NCBI RefSeq assembly: GCF_019550795.1 | Contig: NZ_CP080545.1 | Location: 5,871,501 to 5,935,500, forward strand | Source of the DNA: Paenibacillus sp. sptzw28 | GTDB lineage: Bacteria > Bacillota > Bacilli > Paenibacillales > Paenibacillaceae | Direction of reading: 5' to 3' | DNA: 64,000 nt | Shown: in pieces, positions 28,125-43,506 of the stretch | How the letters are laid out: each line of letters begins with the position of its first letter | How positions within the stretch are numbered: position 1 is the first letter of the stretch | Position numbers and translations under genes: made by a program | Notes under the pieces: model-generated | Databases searched by the model: none | Seen by the model: the letters and a program-made list of their open reading frames with translations, nothing else | What the model was told of the DNA's origin: nothing

Positions 28125-28716
28125 TTAATTCGCTTTATCGACAAAAGCGTTGGTATACGTAAGGTCCAGCTTTACATTTTTCACATCCGGCTTAAAGGTG
28201 GAGAGAATTTTTTGCACGTTTTCAGCAACGCCAGCCGGCATTTTTCCGTCCGTAGTGAACATCGGCAGCTGTCCCTTGAGCGCTTCGAGGTATAGGGCTT
28301 TATTGCCAGCCCAGTACTCCTGCGGCACCTCGTTGGCAATTTCTTCAGGCGTATGCGTGTTCATCCACTTCAACGTCTTCACATAAGCATTGGCCAGCTT
28401 CTGCACTACGTCCGGATGCGCCTTCACGTAATCGTTCATCATGTAGAAGCTGGTGGAAGCATATTTGCCGCCAAGCGCTTTCTCCGTACCCTCTTTGGAG
28501 CTCATATCCACGAAGGTGAAGGCCAGCTTCCTGTCCTTAAGCAGAGAAGCTGTCGGTTCGCTTGTGACGGCTGCGTTGATCCGATTGTTCTGCATCGCCA
28601 CAATCAAGGTTTGCCCGGCGCCAACCGGAAGCGGTGTGTAATCGCTTTCCTTATTGCCGCCTTTGACCACATTGTAACTCGCCAGCATATTTGTTGAAGA
28701 ACCTAGCTGCACCGGG
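28125..28716 (-). pseudogene. Substrate-binding protein (NMT1/TauA-like), 5'-truncated
   Basis: The C-terminal about 195 residues of an ABC-importer binding protein remain, from QLGSSTNMLASYNVV through AVTSEPTASLLKD to the stop; roughly the first 130 residues, with signal peptide and lipobox, are missing. The open frame continues upstream to 28895 but only as antisense of the adjacent kinase fragment. The break lies near 28705-28716. The protein is not a copy of the intact binding protein at 34328-35446. Confidence 0.8.
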
Positions 28717-29108
28717 CCAAAGAGCTCGGAATCCAGCTCTCTATTACGCCCGAATCGAGGGTGTCGGAGCTGTGCCCGAACCGGGAGATCATCGTCACCA
28801 TTCTCGGCAATGCCATTGAAAATGCATTGGAAGCGATGAAAAATGCAAGAACAGAACTGCAAAATCAGAGCATTTCCGTCTTTATCAGCGATCAAGCGTC
28901 GGAGGTCCTTCTTATGGTTCGGGATACGGGACCAGGAGTGGATCCCAAATTGGGAGATCGGATTTTCGAAGACGGGGTTACGACCAAAGGGCCGGGGAGA
29001 GGCTTCGGTTTGGCGCTGTTATCTCGGTTGGTAGCCCGGGCTGGCGGGGATATCCGCATGCTCTCTTCTGCTGAGGGAGCTGCTTTGAAAGTGAGTTTGC
29101 CCAAATAA
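28717..29108 (+). pseudogene. Citrate/C4-dicarboxylate-type sensor kinase, ATPase domain only
   Basis: Only the HATPase part of a CitA/DcuS/DctS-type kinase is left: KELGIQLSITPES, TILGNAIENALEAM (N box), RDTGPGVDP (G1) and GRGFGLALLSR (G2). The sensor domain, membrane helices and His-containing helix are gone; a TAG at 28704 closes the frame upstream. A ribosome binding site and response regulator follow, so the original order kinase-regulator is kept. Confidence 0.8.
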
Positions 29109-32628: not shown

Positions 32629-33432
32629 TCAGGGAAGCGCCAGAGCGTGCGGCTGCTCGGCATCGGCGCTGCGGCCAAGTTCCGCTCTTCCGGACTCCAG
32701 CAGATGCATCACATGCTGGCGCAGCTGCACGAATTCAAGACTGGCGCGCCGGCGCGGTCTCGGCAGCTTGACAGGCAGCGTCGTAACATTCCCCCTTGCA
32801 TGCGGACTCATTACGACGATTCGGTCCGCGAGGTAGAGTGCTTCTTCGACGTCATGCGTGACGAGCAGGAATGTAATTCGATCGGCCTGCCATAGACGGA
32901 CCAGCTCATCCTGCAGCTTCTGCCGAAGCAGCGCATCAAGCGCTGCGAACGGCTCATCCATGAGCAGCACTTTTGGCTTCAGGCATAAGGCGCGCGCAAG
33001 AGCAACCCGCTGGCGCATGCCGCCTGAGAGCTGATTGGGATATAAGGACGATGAGCCGGACAGACCCATAAGCTCCAGATACGATTCGACCGTCTCCTTC
33101 AGCCTGGCACGGGAAAGGTGCTTCAGCTTCAGCCCGAATGCGATATTCTGACGTACGGTGAGCCATGGGAACAGTGCATAGTCCTGGAAAATAAAACCCC
33201 GATCCGTTGATGGTCCGCTCACTTGAACCCCGCCGCAGGCAATCGTACCCGAATCTGCGCGCTCAATGCCTGCGATCAGCTTGAGAAGCGTGCTTTTGCC
33301 GCATCCGGAGGGACCGAGGAGGCAGACGAATTCACCCGGTTTTACATGAAACGATAAGTGATGAAGCGCCTCTACCTCCTGACCCGAGCCGGTCTGGTAC
33401 GATTTGGACACGCCGTCGACTTCAATAAGCAT
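32629..33432 (-). CDS. ABC transporter ATPase, sulfonate/taurine/nitrate type
   Basis: 267 residues from ATG 33432 with AGAGGTG 8 bases upstream. Walker A GPSGCGKST, Q-loop FQDYALFPW, signature LSGGMRQRVALARAL, Walker B LLMDEPFAALD and H-loop VTHDVEEAL are all intact. The FQDYALFPW form and overall length match SsuB/TauB/NrtD. It is the last of three importer genes (binding protein, permease, ATPase) downstream of the AprA/AprB-like pair. Confidence 0.93.
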   Translation of the reverse strand: MLIEVDGVSKSYQTGSGQEVEALHHLSFHVKPGEFVCLLGPSGCGKSTLLKLIAGIERADSGTIACGGVQVSGPSTDRGFIFQDYALFPWLTVRQNIAFGLKLKHLSRARLKETVESYLELMGLSGSSSLYPNQLSGGMRQRVALARALCLKPKVLLMDEPFAALDALLRQKLQDELVRLWQADRITFLLVTHDVEEALYLADRIVVMSPHARGNVTTLPVKLPRPRRRASLEFVQLRQHVMHLLESGRAELGRSADAEQPHALALP

Positions 33433-33500
33433 CGGATATTCACCTCTTTGCATGTTTGTTTTACCCTGAGACAGGCGTTGTCTACTACTACCGGTCACGT

Positions 33501-34325
33501 TTACCTCCAGCGGATCACGGCGCGCTCGATAAGGCGCACGAAAGCTGACGAAGCGTAGCCCAGCAGGCCGATGGAGAACATTCCGATAATCGACTGATCG
33601 TAATCAAGCAGATGATAGGCTTGCCACGTCTCATAGCCGATCCCCGTCTGCCCCGACATCATTTCTCCGGTGATGACCCCCATCCATGAAGCGCCTACTC
33701 CGACGGAAAGTCCGGTGAAAATCTCCGGGGCCATTGCCGGCAGGTATACTTTCCAGATGGCCCGAACCGGTCCACACCCCAAGATACGGGCCGCCTGCAC
33801 ATGCGTATTCGACACTCTCCGGGCTGCATCGCGGCTGCACAGAAGAATCGGAAAAAACGCGCCGACAAACGTAATAAAGATGATACTGCTCTCAATCGTT
33901 GGAAACAGCAGCATCGCCACCGGGAGGTAGGCGATGAGCGGAATCGGGCGGAACAGCTCCAGATTTGGGAACAGCACATCGCTTGCCCGCCGCGACAATC
34001 CGATCCATAATCCGAGCGGAACAGCCAGCGTAAGACCCAGCAGGATGCCGGTAGCGACGCGGGCGGTGCTCATCCATATGTCCTTGTAGTATTGAGCCTG
34101 CGTCAAATCAATCCGCCACGCTTCCAATATCTCGAGCGGCTTCGGCAGGTTGCCGAATTGAAGCGGATAAAGGACATTGTAATGCACGAGCAGATGCCAG
34201 ATCAGGAGGAAGAGAAGGACGGAAGCCGCCCGTACCGCATAAGCGGCAAGGCCCTTCCGACCTGCAGCCGGCCGGCTTTTTCCCGTCGGGACGATTAATT
34301 GTGCCTGCTCCCTCTCCGTGTACAT
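33501..34325 (-). CDS. ABC transporter permease, sulfonate/taurine type
   Basis: 274 residues, six hydrophobic segments, with the inner-membrane component loop FRPIPLIAYLPVAMLLFP and the EAA-type sequence QAARILGCGPVRAIWKVYLPA. This is the SsuC/TauC family. The start is 2 bases after the stop of the binding-protein gene. The 68-base gap to the ATPase gene contains the ATPase ribosome binding site only. Confidence 0.92.
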   Translation of the reverse strand: MYTEREQAQLIVPTGKSRPAAGRKGLAAYAVRAASVLLFLLIWHLLVHYNVLYPLQFGNLPKPLEILEAWRIDLTQAQYYKDIWMSTARVATGILLGLTLAVPLGLWIGLSRRASDVLFPNLELFRPIPLIAYLPVAMLLFPTIESSIIFITFVGAFFPILLCSRDAARRVSNTHVQAARILGCGPVRAIWKVYLPAMAPEIFTGLSVGVGASWMGVITGEMMSGQTGIGYETWQAYHLLDYDQSIIGMFSIGLLGYASSAFVRLIERAVIRWR

Positions 34326-34327
34326 AA

Positions 34328-35446
34328 CTAATAAACCTTCCCTTCAATCCAGTCTCCCTGCAGCTGCTGATCGGTCAAATACGGCTTGCCGAGCGATTTC
34401 AACGCTTCTCTCAGGTAGCTGTCGTCGATAAAGGATTCCAGCGGCAGCTTCTTCTTCAACTTGCCGATGCTGCTCAGAAACTCGGCGCTGCCCTTCAATG
34501 TCGCAATATCCTTCTTGTAGACCGCGGCGTCGAAACGGATGTTTTGCACCATTTTCTCGCAAACGTCACGCGGGAATTTACTCTCTTCCTGGAAAATATC
34601 CGCTGTTTCCTTCGGATGCTCCTGAATGAACGTGTGAGCCTCATCAAGCGCCTGCAGAAAGGCGAGCGTATACGTCTTGTTCGCCTTCACCCAGTCGAGA
34701 TTTGCCACAACTCCCGTGAGATAGTCGATCTTCGTCTCTTCGCCCGAAAGCAGCAGCTTGCCGATGCCTTTACTTTCGATCAGGCTCGGGTACGGCTCCC
34801 AGGTGGCGTGCGCAGCGATTTTGTTCTGCTCGATGCTCTGCATGCCTACCGTAACGGACTGATCGACGATCGTGACCTTGTCGACGAGACCTTTAGCCCG
34901 CAGCGCTTCGAGCAGCATCCGGTGCGAGCTGCTTCCGATCGGCGTCGATACGGTCTTGCCGGCGAGATCATCCACGCTCTTGATATCGCTGCCATTCGGT
35001 ACGAGGATGGCCTGATTACGTCCGCCGGCGCCTTTACCGTCAGTCGCCAGGAAGACGGAATGATAATTCGGCGCGGTGATGCCCATAACTCCGTTAAGCA
35101 GGGAAGGCATATCGCCGAGGAACGAAATCTGGATTTTGCCGCCGTTCATATTGTTATTAAGCACTGAGCCGGCGTGAGCGTCGAACCATTCGACTTTTAC
35201 ATTATCATTCGGTGCAAGCGCCTTGAGACGCTTCTCGAATAGCTTCTCGTGCTTGATGATGAGCGCTCCCCATGTTTGTGCCGTCGGCGACTGATAGCCG
35301 ATCGTAATTGTTACCGATTCTTGGCCCTTACCCGCGGCGGAAGCCGCACCATTATTGCTTCCGCCGGTTGACGAGCAGCCCTGCAGCACCAGGGGAATCG
35401 CGATAAACAAGAATATAATTGCCGTTAGTTTATTAATACTTCTCAT
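34328..35446 (-). CDS. ABC transporter substrate-binding lipoprotein (SsuA/TauA-like)
   Basis: 372 residues with a lipoprotein signal (LVLQGC, Cys at about 24). The mature part is an NMT1/SsuA-like periplasmic-type fold: TITIGYQSPTAQTWGALI, GKIQISFLGDMPSLLNGV, STPIGSSSHRMLLEALRAKG and ATWEPYPSLIESKG. It should bind a small anion and hand it to the permease. The gene lies 32 bases after the ferredoxin gene. The ligand is not decided by sequence; sulfonate or another organosulfur anion is inferred from relatives and from the sulfur-type control site upstream. Confidence 0.88.
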   Translation of the reverse strand: MRSINKLTAIIFLFIAIPLVLQGCSSTGGSNNGAASAAGKGQESVTITIGYQSPTAQTWGALIIKHEKLFEKRLKALAPNDNVKVEWFDAHAGSVLNNNMNGGKIQISFLGDMPSLLNGVMGITAPNYHSVFLATDGKGAGGRNQAILVPNGSDIKSVDDLAGKTVSTPIGSSSHRMLLEALRAKGLVDKVTIVDQSVTVGMQSIEQNKIAAHATWEPYPSLIESKGIGKLLLSGEETKIDYLTGVVANLDWVKANKTYTLAFLQALDEAHTFIQEHPKETADIFQEESKFPRDVCEKMVQNIRFDAAVYKKDIATLKGSAEFLSSIGKLKKKLPLESFIDDSYLREALKSLGKPYLTDQQLQGDWIEGKVY

Positions 35447-35478
35447 AGGCAGGTGACCTCATTTCAATCGAAAGGTAG

Positions 35479-35715
35479 TTATCTCACCAAGTAAGGTATA
35501 TTGACGGTAACGGCGTCGACCGGGCAGTCTGTCTGGCACGGCGTGCAGTACCAGCATTCATCATATTTCATATACGCTTTGCCGTCCTTGTCGAGCGCGA
35601 GAATGCCCATCGGACATACCTGTACGCATATATCGCAGCCGATGCATTTGTCACGGTCGATAATGACGCTCGCTTCGACGCGCTGCTGCACATGATTGGC
35701 GGAATGATTGCTCAT
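35479..35715 (-). CDS. Two-cluster 4Fe-4S ferredoxin, AprB-like
   Basis: 78 residues from ATG 35715, overlapping the flavoprotein stop as ATGA. Two complete cluster motifs are visible: CIGCDICVQVCP and CWYCTPCQTDCP, each C-x2-C-x2-C-x3-C-P. The Trp directly after the first Cys of the second motif is also seen in the beta subunit of APS reductase. The protein is about half the length of classic AprB and lacks its long C-terminal tail. It is probably the electron-transfer subunit of the upstream flavoprotein. Confidence 0.88.
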   Translation of the reverse strand: MSNHSANHVQQRVEASVIIDRDKCIGCDICVQVCPMGILALDKDGKAYMKYDECWYCTPCQTDCPVDAVTVNIPYLVR

Positions 35716-37424
35716 ACGGTGGTTCCTCCTTTGACTAGCGCTTCTGTGTTTTCCAGCACGTAAGGCGGCAGTTCCTTCGTTGAAAGCTCTATTTCGCCGT
35801 TTGCGCCTTTCTTGACGATAACCCGTTTCAACCAGTTGGCATCGTCCCGCTCGGGGTAATCCAGGAAATAATGATAAAAGCCCCACCGGCTTTCCTTGCG
35901 GAACATTGACGCTCTGGCCATCATTTCCGCACAGTCGACGATACTGTGAATTTCCAGCGCCCTGCCCAGCTCGTGCGGATCGCGGGCACCGAGAAGCTTA
36001 AGATCGGTCCGGCGGAAATGCTCGATTTTCTCAAGGGCGATCTCCATCTTCGTGGTCGTCTTGGGCGGCATAAGATACTGCGTCACGATCCGGCGGATCT
36101 TGTATTCGACCTGCTGATGCGGCACGCCGTTCGGCTGAGACGAGAAAGCCTCTATCCGAGCAATCTCCGCTTCGATTTGCGCCGGATTCGGCTCGATCCG
36201 AGCCTCGCCAGCGGCGAAGGCGGCGGCGTTCGTGCCGGCAATCTTGCCGAACGTGAGCGCACCGAGCAAGTATTGGTGCGGTACACAGGCCATGTCGCCA
36301 GCGGCGTAGAGGCCTCGGAGCGATGTCTCCGCCTCGTGATTGACGAGGACGCCGGAGGCGCTATGCCCGCTGCAGAGTCCGACTTCGGAGAAATTCAGCT
36401 CAACCATATCGGTACGGTAGTCTTTGCCCCGTCCGGCATGGAACCGGTCGCGGCTCGGCCGTTCGTTATAGTGAAGAATCGATTCGATCTTGCCGATCGT
36501 CTCGTCATCCAGATGGGTCAGTTTCAGAAAAAGCGGCCATTCGCCTTTGTTGGCAAGCTTCCACATGTTCATTATCAGCTCGCCGCTCCAGTAATCGCAG
36601 CCGGTTACCCGTTCGCCCTTTACGTTTGCGGTGTAGCCCCCGAACGGGCCGGCCACATAGGCACATGCAGGGCCGTTATAGTCCTTCATGGTCGGGTTGA
36701 TCTGGTAGCACTCGATTCCAGTGAGTTCGGCTCCGGCATGAAAGGCCATCGCAAACCCTTCACCCGAATTGGTTGGGTTCTCATAGGTGCTGTAGAGATA
36801 GCCGGAGTCTGTCAGTCCCATCCGTCCTGCCGCACCTGCGGTCAGTACGACTGCCTTCGCTTTGACGACGACCAGCTCGCCTGTATTCACATCAAGCCCG
36901 AGCGCCCCGACCACTTGAGCGCCATCCGTGAGAAGCCTTGTCGCCATAACGCGGTTAACGACCTTGCACCGGTGCTGCTTTACCTTTTTCGCCAGAATCA
37001 GCTTCAAATCGCTTGCCTTCGGCATTGGCAGCACATAACGGCCTTTGCGGTGAACGCGGTATACCTCATAGTTGCCTTCGGCATCCTTCTCGAAATCGAC
37101 GCCCCAGCTGTCCAGCTCCTGAATGATCGGGTAGCATTCGCTCGCCTGCCGGAAGACGGCGCGTTGATCGATTATACCGTCATTGGACTCGGTAATCTCC
37201 AGGGTGTATTCCTCCGGTGTAGCCTTGCCCGGCACGACAGCGTTGTTAAGTCCGTCCATACCCATGCTGATTGCGCCGCTGCGGCGGATGTCCGCTTTGT
37301 CAAGCACAAGCACATTGAGCTCCGGATGCGCCTGCTTTGCCTTGATCGCCGCCATCGTCCCGGCCGTACCGCCCCCGATTATGAGCACGTCGGTTTCATA
37401 CGTTCTCGTTTCCATTGATTGCAT
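35712..37424 (-). CDS. AprA-like FAD flavoprotein of the fumarate/APS reductase superfamily
   Basis: 570 residues. FAD-binding motif VLIIGGGTAGTMAA near the N-terminus, RSGAISMGMDGLNN just after (a form typical of APS-reductase alpha subunits), KAVVLTAGAAGRMG, and the C-terminal GLYAAGDMACVPHQYLLGAL. A helical C-terminal domain follows (residues about 430-570). It forms a two-subunit redox enzyme with the overlapping ferredoxin and is cotranscribed with a sulfonate-type importer. The reaction is unknown; no sulfate adenylyltransferase or monooxygenase gene is adjacent. The start is ATG 37424 or 37415. Confidence 0.85.
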   Translation of the reverse strand: MQSMETRTYETDVLIIGGGTAGTMAAIKAKQAHPELNVLVLDKADIRRSGAISMGMDGLNNAVVPGKATPEEYTLEITESNDGIIDQRAVFRQASECYPIIQELDSWGVDFEKDAEGNYEVYRVHRKGRYVLPMPKASDLKLILAKKVKQHRCKVVNRVMATRLLTDGAQVVGALGLDVNTGELVVVKAKAVVLTAGAAGRMGLTDSGYLYSTYENPTNSGEGFAMAFHAGAELTGIECYQINPTMKDYNGPACAYVAGPFGGYTANVKGERVTGCDYWSGELIMNMWKLANKGEWPLFLKLTHLDDETIGKIESILHYNERPSRDRFHAGRGKDYRTDMVELNFSEVGLCSGHSASGVLVNHEAETSLRGLYAAGDMACVPHQYLLGALTFGKIAGTNAAAFAAGEARIEPNPAQIEAEIARIEAFSSQPNGVPHQQVEYKIRRIVTQYLMPPKTTTKMEIALEKIEHFRRTDLKLLGARDPHELGRALEIHSIVDCAEMMARASMFRKESRWGFYHYFLDYPERDDANWLKRVIVKKGANGEIELSTKELPPYVLENTEALVKGGTTV

Positions 37425-37447
37425 TCATCCTTTCGTAAGGGAGAATT

Positions 37448-37507
37448 AAAAAGAGACACAGAGAGCCATTCCGGACGTTGCCCAGTCCGATAATGATCCT
37501 GTGTCTC
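37448..37507 (-). terminator. Leader attenuator hairpin before the AprA-like gene
   Basis: On the minus strand GAGACACAG (37507-37499) pairs with CTGTGTCTC (37461-37453), with an inner CGGAC / GTCCG hairpin, followed by TTTTT. It lies inside the transcript leader, 24 bases before the start codon. An upstream CCGGAC in the leader can pair alternatively with GTCCGG of the inner stem, so an antiterminated form is possible. Confidence 0.75.
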
Positions 37508-37529
37508 CGGTGGTCCGGTAGACAGTGCA

Positions 37530-37595
37530 TTAATTCCTATAAAATTACTTGGTTTTATGGTCCTTACTTTAGCATCGGCCAAGGCAGACTGTCAA
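37530..37595 (-). promoter_or_regulatory. Promoter with CymR-like box for the AprA-like operon
   Basis: On the minus strand TTGACA (37595-37590) and TAAAGT (37571-37566) are 18 bases apart. Directly downstream, covering the expected start of transcription, lies TAAAAC (37557-37552) followed by GGAATTAA (37537-37530). These two half-motifs resemble the CymR box that represses sulfur-uptake genes in Bacillus when cysteine is plentiful. The exact CymR consensus spacing could not be checked. Confidence 0.6.
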
Positions 37596-37659: not shown

Positions 37660-38655
37660 TTACTCTTGCTGCCGTCCTAACATTTGCAGCACCATTCGGC
37701 TGTTATAATCCGCGATCCCCCGGGCAAACTCCTGGTCGTGAAATCCCCGGTGAAGCAGCTTCAATCCTCCCGAAGTGATCGAGACATGATGATGCAGCTT
37801 GTAAAAGTTCATGCGATGCGGATCCAGACCCGCATGTTTCAAATACCGGTTGTATATCGAATCTTGAAATCTAAGCTGGAGAAAGGTGTGCTCATGCTCA
37901 ATGTCAAAATACTCACAGCCTTCAATATCGATCAGATACGGCTCCAGCCTGTCGCTCACGAAAACATGATCCGGACCTAACTCGCCGTGGATAAACCCGA
38001 ATTCGTGCCTGGGTTCGATCGCAGCCAGGAGATCGTCGAACCGCCGGATGATTTCACTCTCATTCCGCGCGATATCATCCATATAACGTGACGCATAGGA
38101 TAACTGCCGTCTCGCATTTTTATAAATAAGCGTCTGGCAAGAATCGGTCTTCCGCGGCTCCGCCGTTACGCTGCCATGAACCGGGCTTTTGCACGAATGC
38201 ATGACGGCAAGCATCTCTGCCAGCTCTCCGAACACTTTGTCCCGGATACGGGGATCGGCATCGTAATAGGCCGCGATATCCGTCCCCGAAACATACTCCA
38301 CAATGGCAAAATCAAAGGGGTAGCGGTCTCTTTCGTGGTTTATATAATAAATAGCGGGCGTACGGATGCCCAATCGGGTTAACAATTCGGTATTCGCCTC
38401 AAATTGTCGGCTGCCGTACGACTCTTCCGTTTCACCGTTTTCCCGCTTCTCCTGTTCAAAATAATTCATGGAGAGGTCCCAAACATACAGGATAAACGCC
38501 AAGCCTTCCGTACATTCCAGCTTATAAACCACCTTTTGCGCTCCTCCCCGCATTTTGCGCGCTTCCATGAGGCGGCACCGGTCGCCGGCGATTGTCCGAA
38601 CATAGGCATCCAAATCCTCTCGGCTTATATGAAAACTCTTCCGTTCTTGTTCCAA
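37660..38655 (-). CDS. Phosphotransferase of the APH/choline-kinase fold
   Basis: 331 residues from TTG 38655 (AAGGAG 8 bases upstream); GTG 38664 overlaps that site. The kinase-like fold shows GGAQKVVYKLE (nucleotide loop), catalytic-loop FIHGELGPDHVFV with Glu where the usual HGD Asp stands, and LIDIEGCEYFD for metal binding. Related Bacillales proteins carry the same HGELGPDH form. It may phosphorylate an aminoglycoside, macrolide or small alcohol; no resistance can be claimed from sequence. Confidence 0.75.
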   Translation of the reverse strand: MEQERKSFHISREDLDAYVRTIAGDRCRLMEARKMRGGAQKVVYKLECTEGLAFILYVWDLSMNYFEQEKRENGETEESYGSRQFEANTELLTRLGIRTPAIYYINHERDRYPFDFAIVEYVSGTDIAAYYDADPRIRDKVFGELAEMLAVMHSCKSPVHGSVTAEPRKTDSCQTLIYKNARRQLSYASRYMDDIARNESEIIRRFDDLLAAIEPRHEFGFIHGELGPDHVFVSDRLEPYLIDIEGCEYFDIEHEHTFLQLRFQDSIYNRYLKHAGLDPHRMNFYKLHHHVSITSGGLKLLHRGFHDQEFARGIADYNSRMVLQMLGRQQE

Positions 38656-38783
38656 ACGACTCACTCCTTAAGAACATGTTTGAATTCGTAAAAAATATAA
38701 CTAAAATTCTAAAAAAAATATAGACTGTTTCGAGTCCGATTGTTATGATGTTGAATAAGTTCTGCATAAAAATAGTCACTGGA

Positions 38784-38815: not shown

Positions 38816-39022
38816 ATTTGTTCCTTCGATAACCCAAATAACTCGGATTTGATAAGCATGTTTAACCCGTCGTTCCGCAATTGTCCAGCCGCTAGATGAT
38901 ATTTATTTTACATGCATCATATTGAATATTAACGGGGTAAATTGTATGATAATATTAATCCATACTTAACGGATCGGAATAATATAATTTAATGACCTGC
39001 AGCCAGAAAGGCGGGAACTTCG

Positions 39023-39453
39023 ATGAGCGGCAGCAGCTTGAACCTGATTCAAATGCAGGAAGCCATGGATCTGCTCGGAATTAGCCGGTCCACGCTGGAG
39101 AATGGATTCGGGCCAACGAAGACGCCGCTATCGCCTATTTGAAGGCGCATATCCGCGCGCATCGGTTCATCCGAAGCGAGCCGTTCGCCGCAGCGCAGCT
39201 CATCCACCGCGCGACAGGATTTCCCGTGGATGTCGCGGGAAGTGTCATTACGCGCGTTCGCTGGGATGCAGCGCCATACGGGCGCGACCTTGATACGATG
39301 CGCCGTCTTGCAGCGCTCGACGGTTCATCGTATGGAACCCCAGTGCAAGTGATCGTGGAACCGGCGTATTTGTCGCAAGCGGCGCGCGCGCTGAGGCTGC
39401 CCTATTCTCCTGCCTCATCCATGGCGGACGACTGGGCGGATGACGCGTTATAA
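39023..39453 (+). pseudogene. Chimeric remnant: HTH N-terminus and binding-protein C-terminus
   Basis: ATG 39023 opens a short frame with an excisionase/MerR-like helix-turn-helix (LIQMQEAMDLLGISRSTLE) that ends at a TGA at 39140-39142. From about 39106 another frame encodes the C-terminal part of an SsuA/NMT1-type binding protein (WIRANEDAAIAYLKAH to the stop at 39453). The two parts come from unrelated genes and meet in different frames, so neither is functional as an intact protein. Confidence 0.65.
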
Positions 39454-43095: not shown

Positions 43096-43506
43096 AGATT
43101 TCTATATGTGGTGTAACCTCTGGTTTTCCCCGATTTTATTATGATGGATTTCCTCCCATCCGTTAGCACATTCCTTTTATCACGGCTGCTTTAAGGAACA
43201 CGGATTCAAACTGGCGCGGTCATTGGAACCGCAAGGACGATTGAGAGGCAAGGGCTTTCGTTGTTTTCGTGCAAGTGAATCGAAGACCTATCAGGTTACA
43301 CGAATATATTCATCGTACAAACATACCTTGAGCGGGTTCAGTCCGTTCGACGGGTTTATACGATGCCATTGAATAAAAATGACCCTCGCTAATTTAGCGG
43401 GGGTCGACCAATTTTCAGGCATGAAAATTGAATATGAATATGTCCCTTTTCTTATTAAGTTGATTTCTAATAATTACAAGAAGACGTATTGGTCTAATAT
43501 GACATA
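43096..43506. other. Gene-free interval
   Basis: No convincing reading frame on either strand. It contains one hairpin, GACCCTCGCTAA / TTAGCGGGGGTC (43381-43405), that has a T run on the minus strand but no minus-strand gene feeding it. Composition is lower in G+C than the flanking ABC operon. It borders a gene remnant at 43507 and looks like decayed accessory DNA. Confidence 0.5.

Follow-up and report, generated by a model that had tools for sequence, protein, structure and literature searches.

Among the systems described for scavenging sulfur from organic anions, asf is a known precedent for the locus considered here: in the parts of the published accounts drawn on, asfRABC is required for the use of aromatic sulfonates and AsfA and AsfB form a reductase-ferredoxin pair (PMC4267179, PMC2864759), described in one of them as a reductase/ferredoxin system that supports oxygenation together with ssu (PMC4267179). 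Dissimilatory adenosine 5'-phosphosulfate (APS) reductase, AprAB, and the 3'-phosphoadenosine 5'-phosphosulfate (PAPS) reductase of a methanogen, MtPAPSR, share the plan of a flavin adenine dinucleotide (FAD) subunit served by a two-cluster ferredoxin, and SsuABCD provides the general type of importer. A 64,000-nt stretch of the genome of Paenibacillus sp. sptzw28, referred to below as the window, carries an operon that combines such a flavoprotein (A) and ferredoxin (B) with a complete ATP-binding cassette (ABC) importer. This A-B operon is real and conserved; it is probably a system for scavenging sulfur, and a variant of what AsfAB does. An original prediction made from the letters of the window had held that known desulfonation does not explain the operon; that was too strong, and overlooked AsfAB, a flavoprotein/ferredoxin with a binding protein, serving aromatic sulfonates, as a precedent already in print (PMC4267179, PMC2864759, as far as those accounts were consulted). 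In the portion of the open-licence PMC literature covered (PMC4267179, PMC9694294, PMC2864759, PMC3506598, PMC10322725, PMC2211403, PMC8557817, PMC11852219 and PMC8305402), no description was found of a PRK08275 protein, the family to which A belongs, together with an importer.

The operon and its conservation

The operon runs on the minus strand from 37424 to 32629 in the order A, B, SsuA-like lipoprotein, permease and ATPase, with short gaps, and the coordinates bear out the five-gene arrangement, A-B overlap and tight spacing first proposed. A (35712..37424) is a 570-aa FAD flavoprotein, APS/PAPS-reductase-alpha-like and of the PRK08275/NF006131 family as judged by profiles, PDB match and tree. 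B (35479..35715) is a 78-aa two-cluster [4Fe-4S] ferredoxin with a start ATG that overlaps the stop of A (ATGA, a 4-nt overlap); the motifs RSGAISMGMDGLNN and CWYCTPCQTDCP, cited in the original prediction, are both present in the sequence. The substrate-binding lipoprotein that follows (34328..35446) is NMT1/SsuA-like and best fits TIGR01728 SsuA_fam at 141 bits, below the cut-off of 163.5. The permease (33501..34325) is SaoP/NtrB/TauC-like with every model below cut-off, and the ATPase (32629..33498, from the first in-frame start) is SaoA-like at 279 bits vs a cut-off of 360; its true start is probably the methionine of MLIEVDG near 33432 rather than the first in-frame start. The Pfam and NCBIfam domains along the operon are FAD_binding_2/Succ_DH_flav_C, Fer4, NMT1/SsuA-like, BPD_transp_1 and ABC_tran, and there is no Sat, SsuD or TauD gene within it, as had been claimed.

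Conservation was assessed on 80 loci from a scan of genome contigs, the best-matching among 590 confirmed stretches and therefore not a random sample. B adjoins A in 79 of these 80 loci, the sole miss (L015) being a contig end, and in 63 the full set of A, B, binding protein, permease and ATPase fits within 7 kb of a single strand, with 17 lacking at least one part. The linkage of A-B with the importer is not chance, and it is old and wide. Also encoded within that distance and on that strand are a HEAT-repeat protein (70 loci), a GntR-type regulator (63), a GBBH-like_N (DUF971) protein (54) and an SsuD homologue (6). The A-B set with importer occurs on plasmid records of Aquabacterium, Acinetobacter and Tsukamurella, and a gene annotated as 'sulfite exporter TauE/SafE' adjoins the GntR-A genes in Aquabacterium. 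In Nostoc the binding protein, A, B, HEAT and Mrp genes are scattered along one stretch, and Acidithiobacillus and Mesorhizobium have A-B-HEAT without importer genes alongside. A protein of about 1194 aa having only a weak Pyr_redox_2 match (L063 16839-20423) was also seen downstream within the A operon, often with FdxA; its cluster recurs in 7 loci (among them L040, L047, L063 and L075) of Hydrogenophilales, Halothiobacillus and other proteobacterial metagenome-assembled genomes. In all, 6622 matches at E <= 0.001 were obtained among 7999 scored candidates, not all of which necessarily belong to the PRK08275 family.

Relatives and active-site residues of the flavoprotein

With 847.9 bits against a cut-off of 587, A belongs fully to NF006131/PRK08275, an NCBIfam model that bears just the name 'fumarate reductase/succinate dehydrogenase flavoprotein subunit' and has no specific function attached. 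It scores 298.4 bits against PRK06854, the APS-reductase alpha model with a cut-off of 557, and 142.8 bits against TIGR02061 (AprA), far below the cut-off of 641.75. The nearest solved relative is 8a8o, the PAPS reductase of Methanothermococcus thermolithotrophicus (E 1.8e-54), with AprA 1jnr second, and a Foldseek search with the model of A also ranked 8a8o first (E 2.5e-38); the FrdA fold is nearly as close, and a fold search separates APS/PAPS reductase from fumarate reductase poorly. In a tree of 54 rows the 27 A rows (two of which repeat other rows) form one clade with support of 99 in the Shimodaira-Hasegawa-like approximate likelihood ratio test, and the neighbouring clade (80) joins the 12 PRK06854 rows with the single AprA row. 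Grouping of A with L-aspartate oxidase or fumarate reductase, which would have spoken against the original prediction, was not seen in this tree: by its position A is neither an L-aspartate oxidase (five NadB rows, standing apart) nor a succinate dehydrogenase (one SdhA row, which serves as root).

Residues of the active site are divided in a suggestive way. In the published AprA account, as far as consulted, Asn74 and His398 contact sulfate oxygens, and Arg265 and Trp234 make further sulfate contacts via water, Arg265 also contacting the phosphate/ribose part (PMC2211403). Asn60 of A, counted off the pairwise alignment, corresponds to Asn74, and His354 corresponds to His398, an assignment made by the column shared with AprA and PRK06854 rather than by residue number; both are present in all A rows of the tree and invariant in a 38-row alignment of A. 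The position of Arg265 is taken by Thr (Thr245) or Leu, and that of Trp234 by Tyr (Tyr214), in every A row, whereas both original residues are present in all 12 PRK06854 rows and in the AprA row. Because of these two replacements A is not filed as an APS or PAPS reductase. On the ferredoxin side, the Trp of AprB type anticipated for the second motif of B was found (CWYC): it follows the first Cys and is the equivalent of the electron-transferring AprB Trp48 beside the cluster I Cys, and it is present in 57 of 57 ferredoxins recovered (82 loci were given, and 25 were not picked up). Thus the AprAB likeness of A-B claimed at the outset is backed by PDB match, tree and residues. Read from the alignments, and with a poor active-site model, the split of residues suggests that electrons are delivered as in AprAB and that an SO3 group is bound, with what may be another leaving group.

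A candidate leader RNA, regulators and genome content

Ahead of A lies a candidate attenuator leader RNA of 118 nt (37444..37561, minus strand), consisting of a GGAATTA box, a hairpin GTCTACCGG/CCGGAGAC in which GTC.CCGG pairs with CCGG.GAC, and a terminator-like hairpin GAGACACAG/CTGTGTCTC with T-run (37453..37507, minus strand) about 28 nt ahead of the A start. Because the GAGAC of the first hairpin is also part of the terminator arm, the two hairpins are mutually exclusive. A promoter-like site (TTGACA-18-TAAAGT, 10/12; 37566..37595, minus strand) precedes the leader, in a scanned region with 7 such sites vs 5.3 expected in shuffles. Folding of the window leader is slightly better than that of its shuffles (z -1.84, with 8 of 200 as good). 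The leader is present in 8 of the 10 Paenibacillaceae A operons examined, being missing from L009 and from the second copy in the host genome described below. No Rfam match was found for the window leader (the best, RF02969, has 19.1 bits vs a gathering score of 44.2), and a search of Rfam with 14 related leaders gave nothing at E <= 1.

Covariation was modest when just the first 8 leaders were compared. A model built from these 8 also matched sequences outside its training rows, with scores as high as 56 bits and the strongest matches in genomes without A, and at the lax limit of E <= 1 it has matches in 137 of 245 Paenibacillaceae genomes. Over 38 leaders (the 8 used in training and 30 others), 252 of 266 cells of the first hairpin are paired and 16 are changed on both sides, a count that leans towards the model's own structure; no shuffle out of 500 attains its pairing percentage, its changed cells or its covariation score, but 171 attain its number of pairs changed and 195 its number of pair types. 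For the terminator, which lies outside the model, 182 of 190 cells are paired and 6 changed on both sides in the same 38 leaders, and of 500 shuffles 1 attains the pairing percentage, 0 the changed cells, 0 the covariation score and 409 each of the other two measures. Taken singly, 32 of the 38 leaders have a stem of at least 7 pairs before a T-run, vs a mean of 12.7 and a maximum of 20 in 50 shuffles.

The genes behind similar leaders are of several kinds. The 34 further matches (L175-L208) are followed by an open frame of at least 60 residues in 33 cases; the products include SsuA (L175), CysT (L179) and a sulfate-binding protein (L185), all three over cut-off, and at L183 a protein that is SsuD-like but scores below it. 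By eye, three more proteins resemble that of L175. There are also six NMT1-type binding proteins or look-alikes (two scanned), two ABC permeases or look-alikes (one scanned), seven LplB-type permeases by eye, and eleven mixed proteins that include a MetN-like ATPase, an energy-coupling factor (ECF) ATPase, aldo/keto reductases, HpaB, LysR and a redoxin. Among the matches listed, at least nine leaders lie within 3 kb upstream, and on the same strand, of SsuD-type matches, three of these nine SsuD-type proteins being below cut-off. As independent evidence for the role of the operon the leader thus fits sulfur, and not only sulfur. The leader of the window and its relatives could possibly be a new riboswitch or a protein-bound attenuator.

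The host genome has two A copies, the second about 126 kb away (G000:C1:6034931-6036595, L087) and with A 82% identical; the binding proteins of the two copies share 63% identity over 354 residues. Downstream of this second copy come Mrp/NBP35 and PF03601 genes, PF03601 proteins having been proposed as sulfite exporters, and the copy is accompanied by an intact divergent regulator with an HTH_17 domain and an SsuA-like domain (L087 9846-11024, plus strand). In the window only a broken remnant of this HTH_17-SsuA-like fusion is found, in two frames (39020..39405, plus strand), with an APH-family phosphotransferase gene (37660-38664) between it and A; in related loci the regulator is intact and divergent. 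One-component regulators of this design, with an excisionase-type HTH_17 and a cytosolic SsuA-like domain, were likewise seen divergent from A in L006-L011, L165 and L167, and presumably sense the imported ligand.

Elsewhere in the host genome cysH and sat lie side by side, both over cut-offs, and A-B is therefore not needed for sulfate. Searches for SsuD and TauD at E <= 0.001 found neither anywhere in the host genome, which is 96.7% complete. Over the family, A exceeds the PRK08275 cut-off in only 6 of 245 Paenibacillaceae genomes and is thus rare there, and SsuD is over cut-off in 84 of the 245. A simple rule that A replaces SsuD was rejected, since 4 of the 6 genomes with A are among these 84.

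Two further features of the window concern other genes. A shortened SsuA-like binding-protein fragment (28125-28895, minus strand) abuts a shortened histidine-kinase ATPase fragment (28761-29108, plus strand), as if two broken genes had been joined by rearrangement. A match to the BsrC small RNA family of Rfam is present at 43186-43274 (minus strand; 71.7 bits vs a gathering score of 38).

Proposed function and comparison with known systems

Relatives keep the set together and the operon shares a candidate control RNA with sulfur-uptake genes; it therefore probably liberates sulfur from an organosulfur compound that it imports. On balance, the reading favoured here is that it imports an organosulfonate-like anion and releases sulfite from it reductively on FAD, in which the kind of substrate, the product formed and the N5 chemistry are what we infer. 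In such a scheme the ABC importer would take in the anion, A would hold it with the SO3 group towards the FAD, and B would pass electrons via its two [4Fe-4S] clusters and the conserved Trp. The reduced FAD would then attack the sulfur, by flavin-N5-sulfite chemistry as proposed for AprA, and the sulfite freed would enter ordinary assimilation. A bolder form of this proposal, possible but doubtful as a whole, is that A-B represents a new enzyme class, an oxygen-independent desulfonase of AprAB fold that cleaves C-S bonds via a flavin-N5-sulfite adduct and is widespread from Bacillota to Cyanobacteriota, being governed in Paenibacillaceae by a new sulfur-responsive attenuator or riboswitch common to ssu and sulfate-uptake operons.

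The alternative that survives best, unlikely as it seems, gives A-B the role written for AsfAB: an electron-transfer chain only, driving a separate oxygenase that cleaves the C-S bond. The description of asf as supporting oxygenation with ssu (PMC4267179, in the part consulted) and the SsuD homologues beside A in 6 of 80 loci favor such a chain, whereas the other 74 loci lack an SsuD homologue within 7 kb on the strand of A, the host genome has no SsuD or TauD match, and A retains two sulfate-contacting residues of AprA. It is improbable that the substrate is free of sulfur and that A-B is fumarate-reductase-like or another dehydrogenase: the database name, the near-equal closeness of the FrdA fold and the many genes behind similar leaders that are not evidently sulfur-related would agree with this, but the position of A in the tree, its linkage to an SsuA-like importer and the resemblance of its leader to that of known sulfur-uptake genes argue otherwise. 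Equally improbable is that A-B acts oxidatively, or detoxifies sulfite or a sulfonated compound, instead of feeding assimilation; a reverse reaction of AprAB has been suggested for sulfur oxidisers (PMC2211403, as consulted in part) and A is found in Thiobacillus, Halothiobacillus and Acidithiobacillus, but the importer linkage and the likeness of the leader to ssu and sulfate-uptake leaders point away from it. Of the import-and-reduce-or-oxidise pathway for an organosulfur anion originally put forward, import and reduction have thus gained backing from the PDB match, tree, residues, neighbourhoods and leader RNA, and the oxidative direction is without support here. That A-B serves assimilation as a methanogen-type reductase of APS or PAPS, with an importer for sulfate, as MtPAPSR being the closest solved relative and the similar leaders of sulfate-uptake genes might suggest, is very improbable given the PRK06854 score, the loss of Arg265 and Trp234 in all A rows and the CysH-Sat pair elsewhere in the genome.

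If the favoured reading is right, a common protein family is reassigned, and many entries named 'fumarate reductase/succinate dehydrogenase flavoprotein' may be a sulfur-scavenging enzyme. There would then be an extra route of desulfonation needing neither SsuD nor TauD, the chemistry of AprAB would have been recruited to assimilation, and the RNA switch would serve as a marker of sulfur-scavenging operons in Paenibacillaceae.

The comparison with AsfAB depends on which gene is asfA in C. metallidurans CH34, a replicon of which is said to carry asfRAB (PMC2864759, in the part drawn on). That replicon has no PRK08275 member over cut-off, and the proposal that the operon is asfAB itself was rejected. 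Rmet_4334/5 was located by interpolation of the TauD locus tags of that paper (PMC2864759, likewise in part) against six TauD positions, which placed it near 923 kb; the sole flavoprotein-ferredoxin pair seen by eye in 912-935 kb, at 928-930 kb (L092 4882-6863), is the best fit, and a TcuA-type protein encoded at 793 kb was not considered further. On this identification the likely C. metallidurans AsfA, which has 56.2 bits to PRK08275, a separate clade from A and 41 bits by phmmer, likely belongs to another family than A. A protein of the L092 type is present in 2 of 18 genomes selected from A carriers. The family of A may nevertheless be that of the original AsfA of P. putida S-313: among genera for which asfA has been published, Pseudomonas has both types and Variovorax has PRK08275. 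In two Pseudomonas genomes (L212, L213) an AsfA-like flavoprotein and a ferredoxin without the AprB Trp were seen, by eye, near genes for a binding protein, a luciferase-like monooxygenase, and TauD-like and rhodanese-like proteins.

In summary, A-B shares with AsfAB a flavoprotein-ferredoxin pair with a 4-nt overlap (as in L092) and, probably, sulfur scavenging; an AsfA-like sequence adjoins A in Andreprevotia (L033) and in Sinorhizobium fredii (there a match in three pieces with no gene annotated), and an SsuA-like binding protein comes next in Azospirillum and P. cellulositrophicus. The two differ in the ferredoxin motif (CQTC, lacking the AprB Trp, in L092 vs CWYC in B). They may differ also in the regulator, LysR being the asf trait and a GntR-type homologue on the same strand the usual one here (with no LysR seen by eye beside L092 either), and in dependence on ssu, the host genome having no SsuD match. 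With AprAB the pair has in common the FAD alpha subunit, the two-cluster ferredoxin beta subunit and the equivalents of Trp-B48, Asn74 and His398, whereas A has replaced Arg265 and Trp234, carries a 5-residue insertion, misses the AprA cut-off and belongs to an importer operon without Sat. MtPAPSR (8a8o) and PRK06854 follow the same two-subunit plan, and form a neighbouring clade that has retained the two residues A has replaced. SsuABCD, finally, has a binding protein, permease and ATPase of the same general type, and similar leaders stand ahead of ssu genes in relatives, but the importer parts of the window fall below cut-off and the host genome has no SsuD match.

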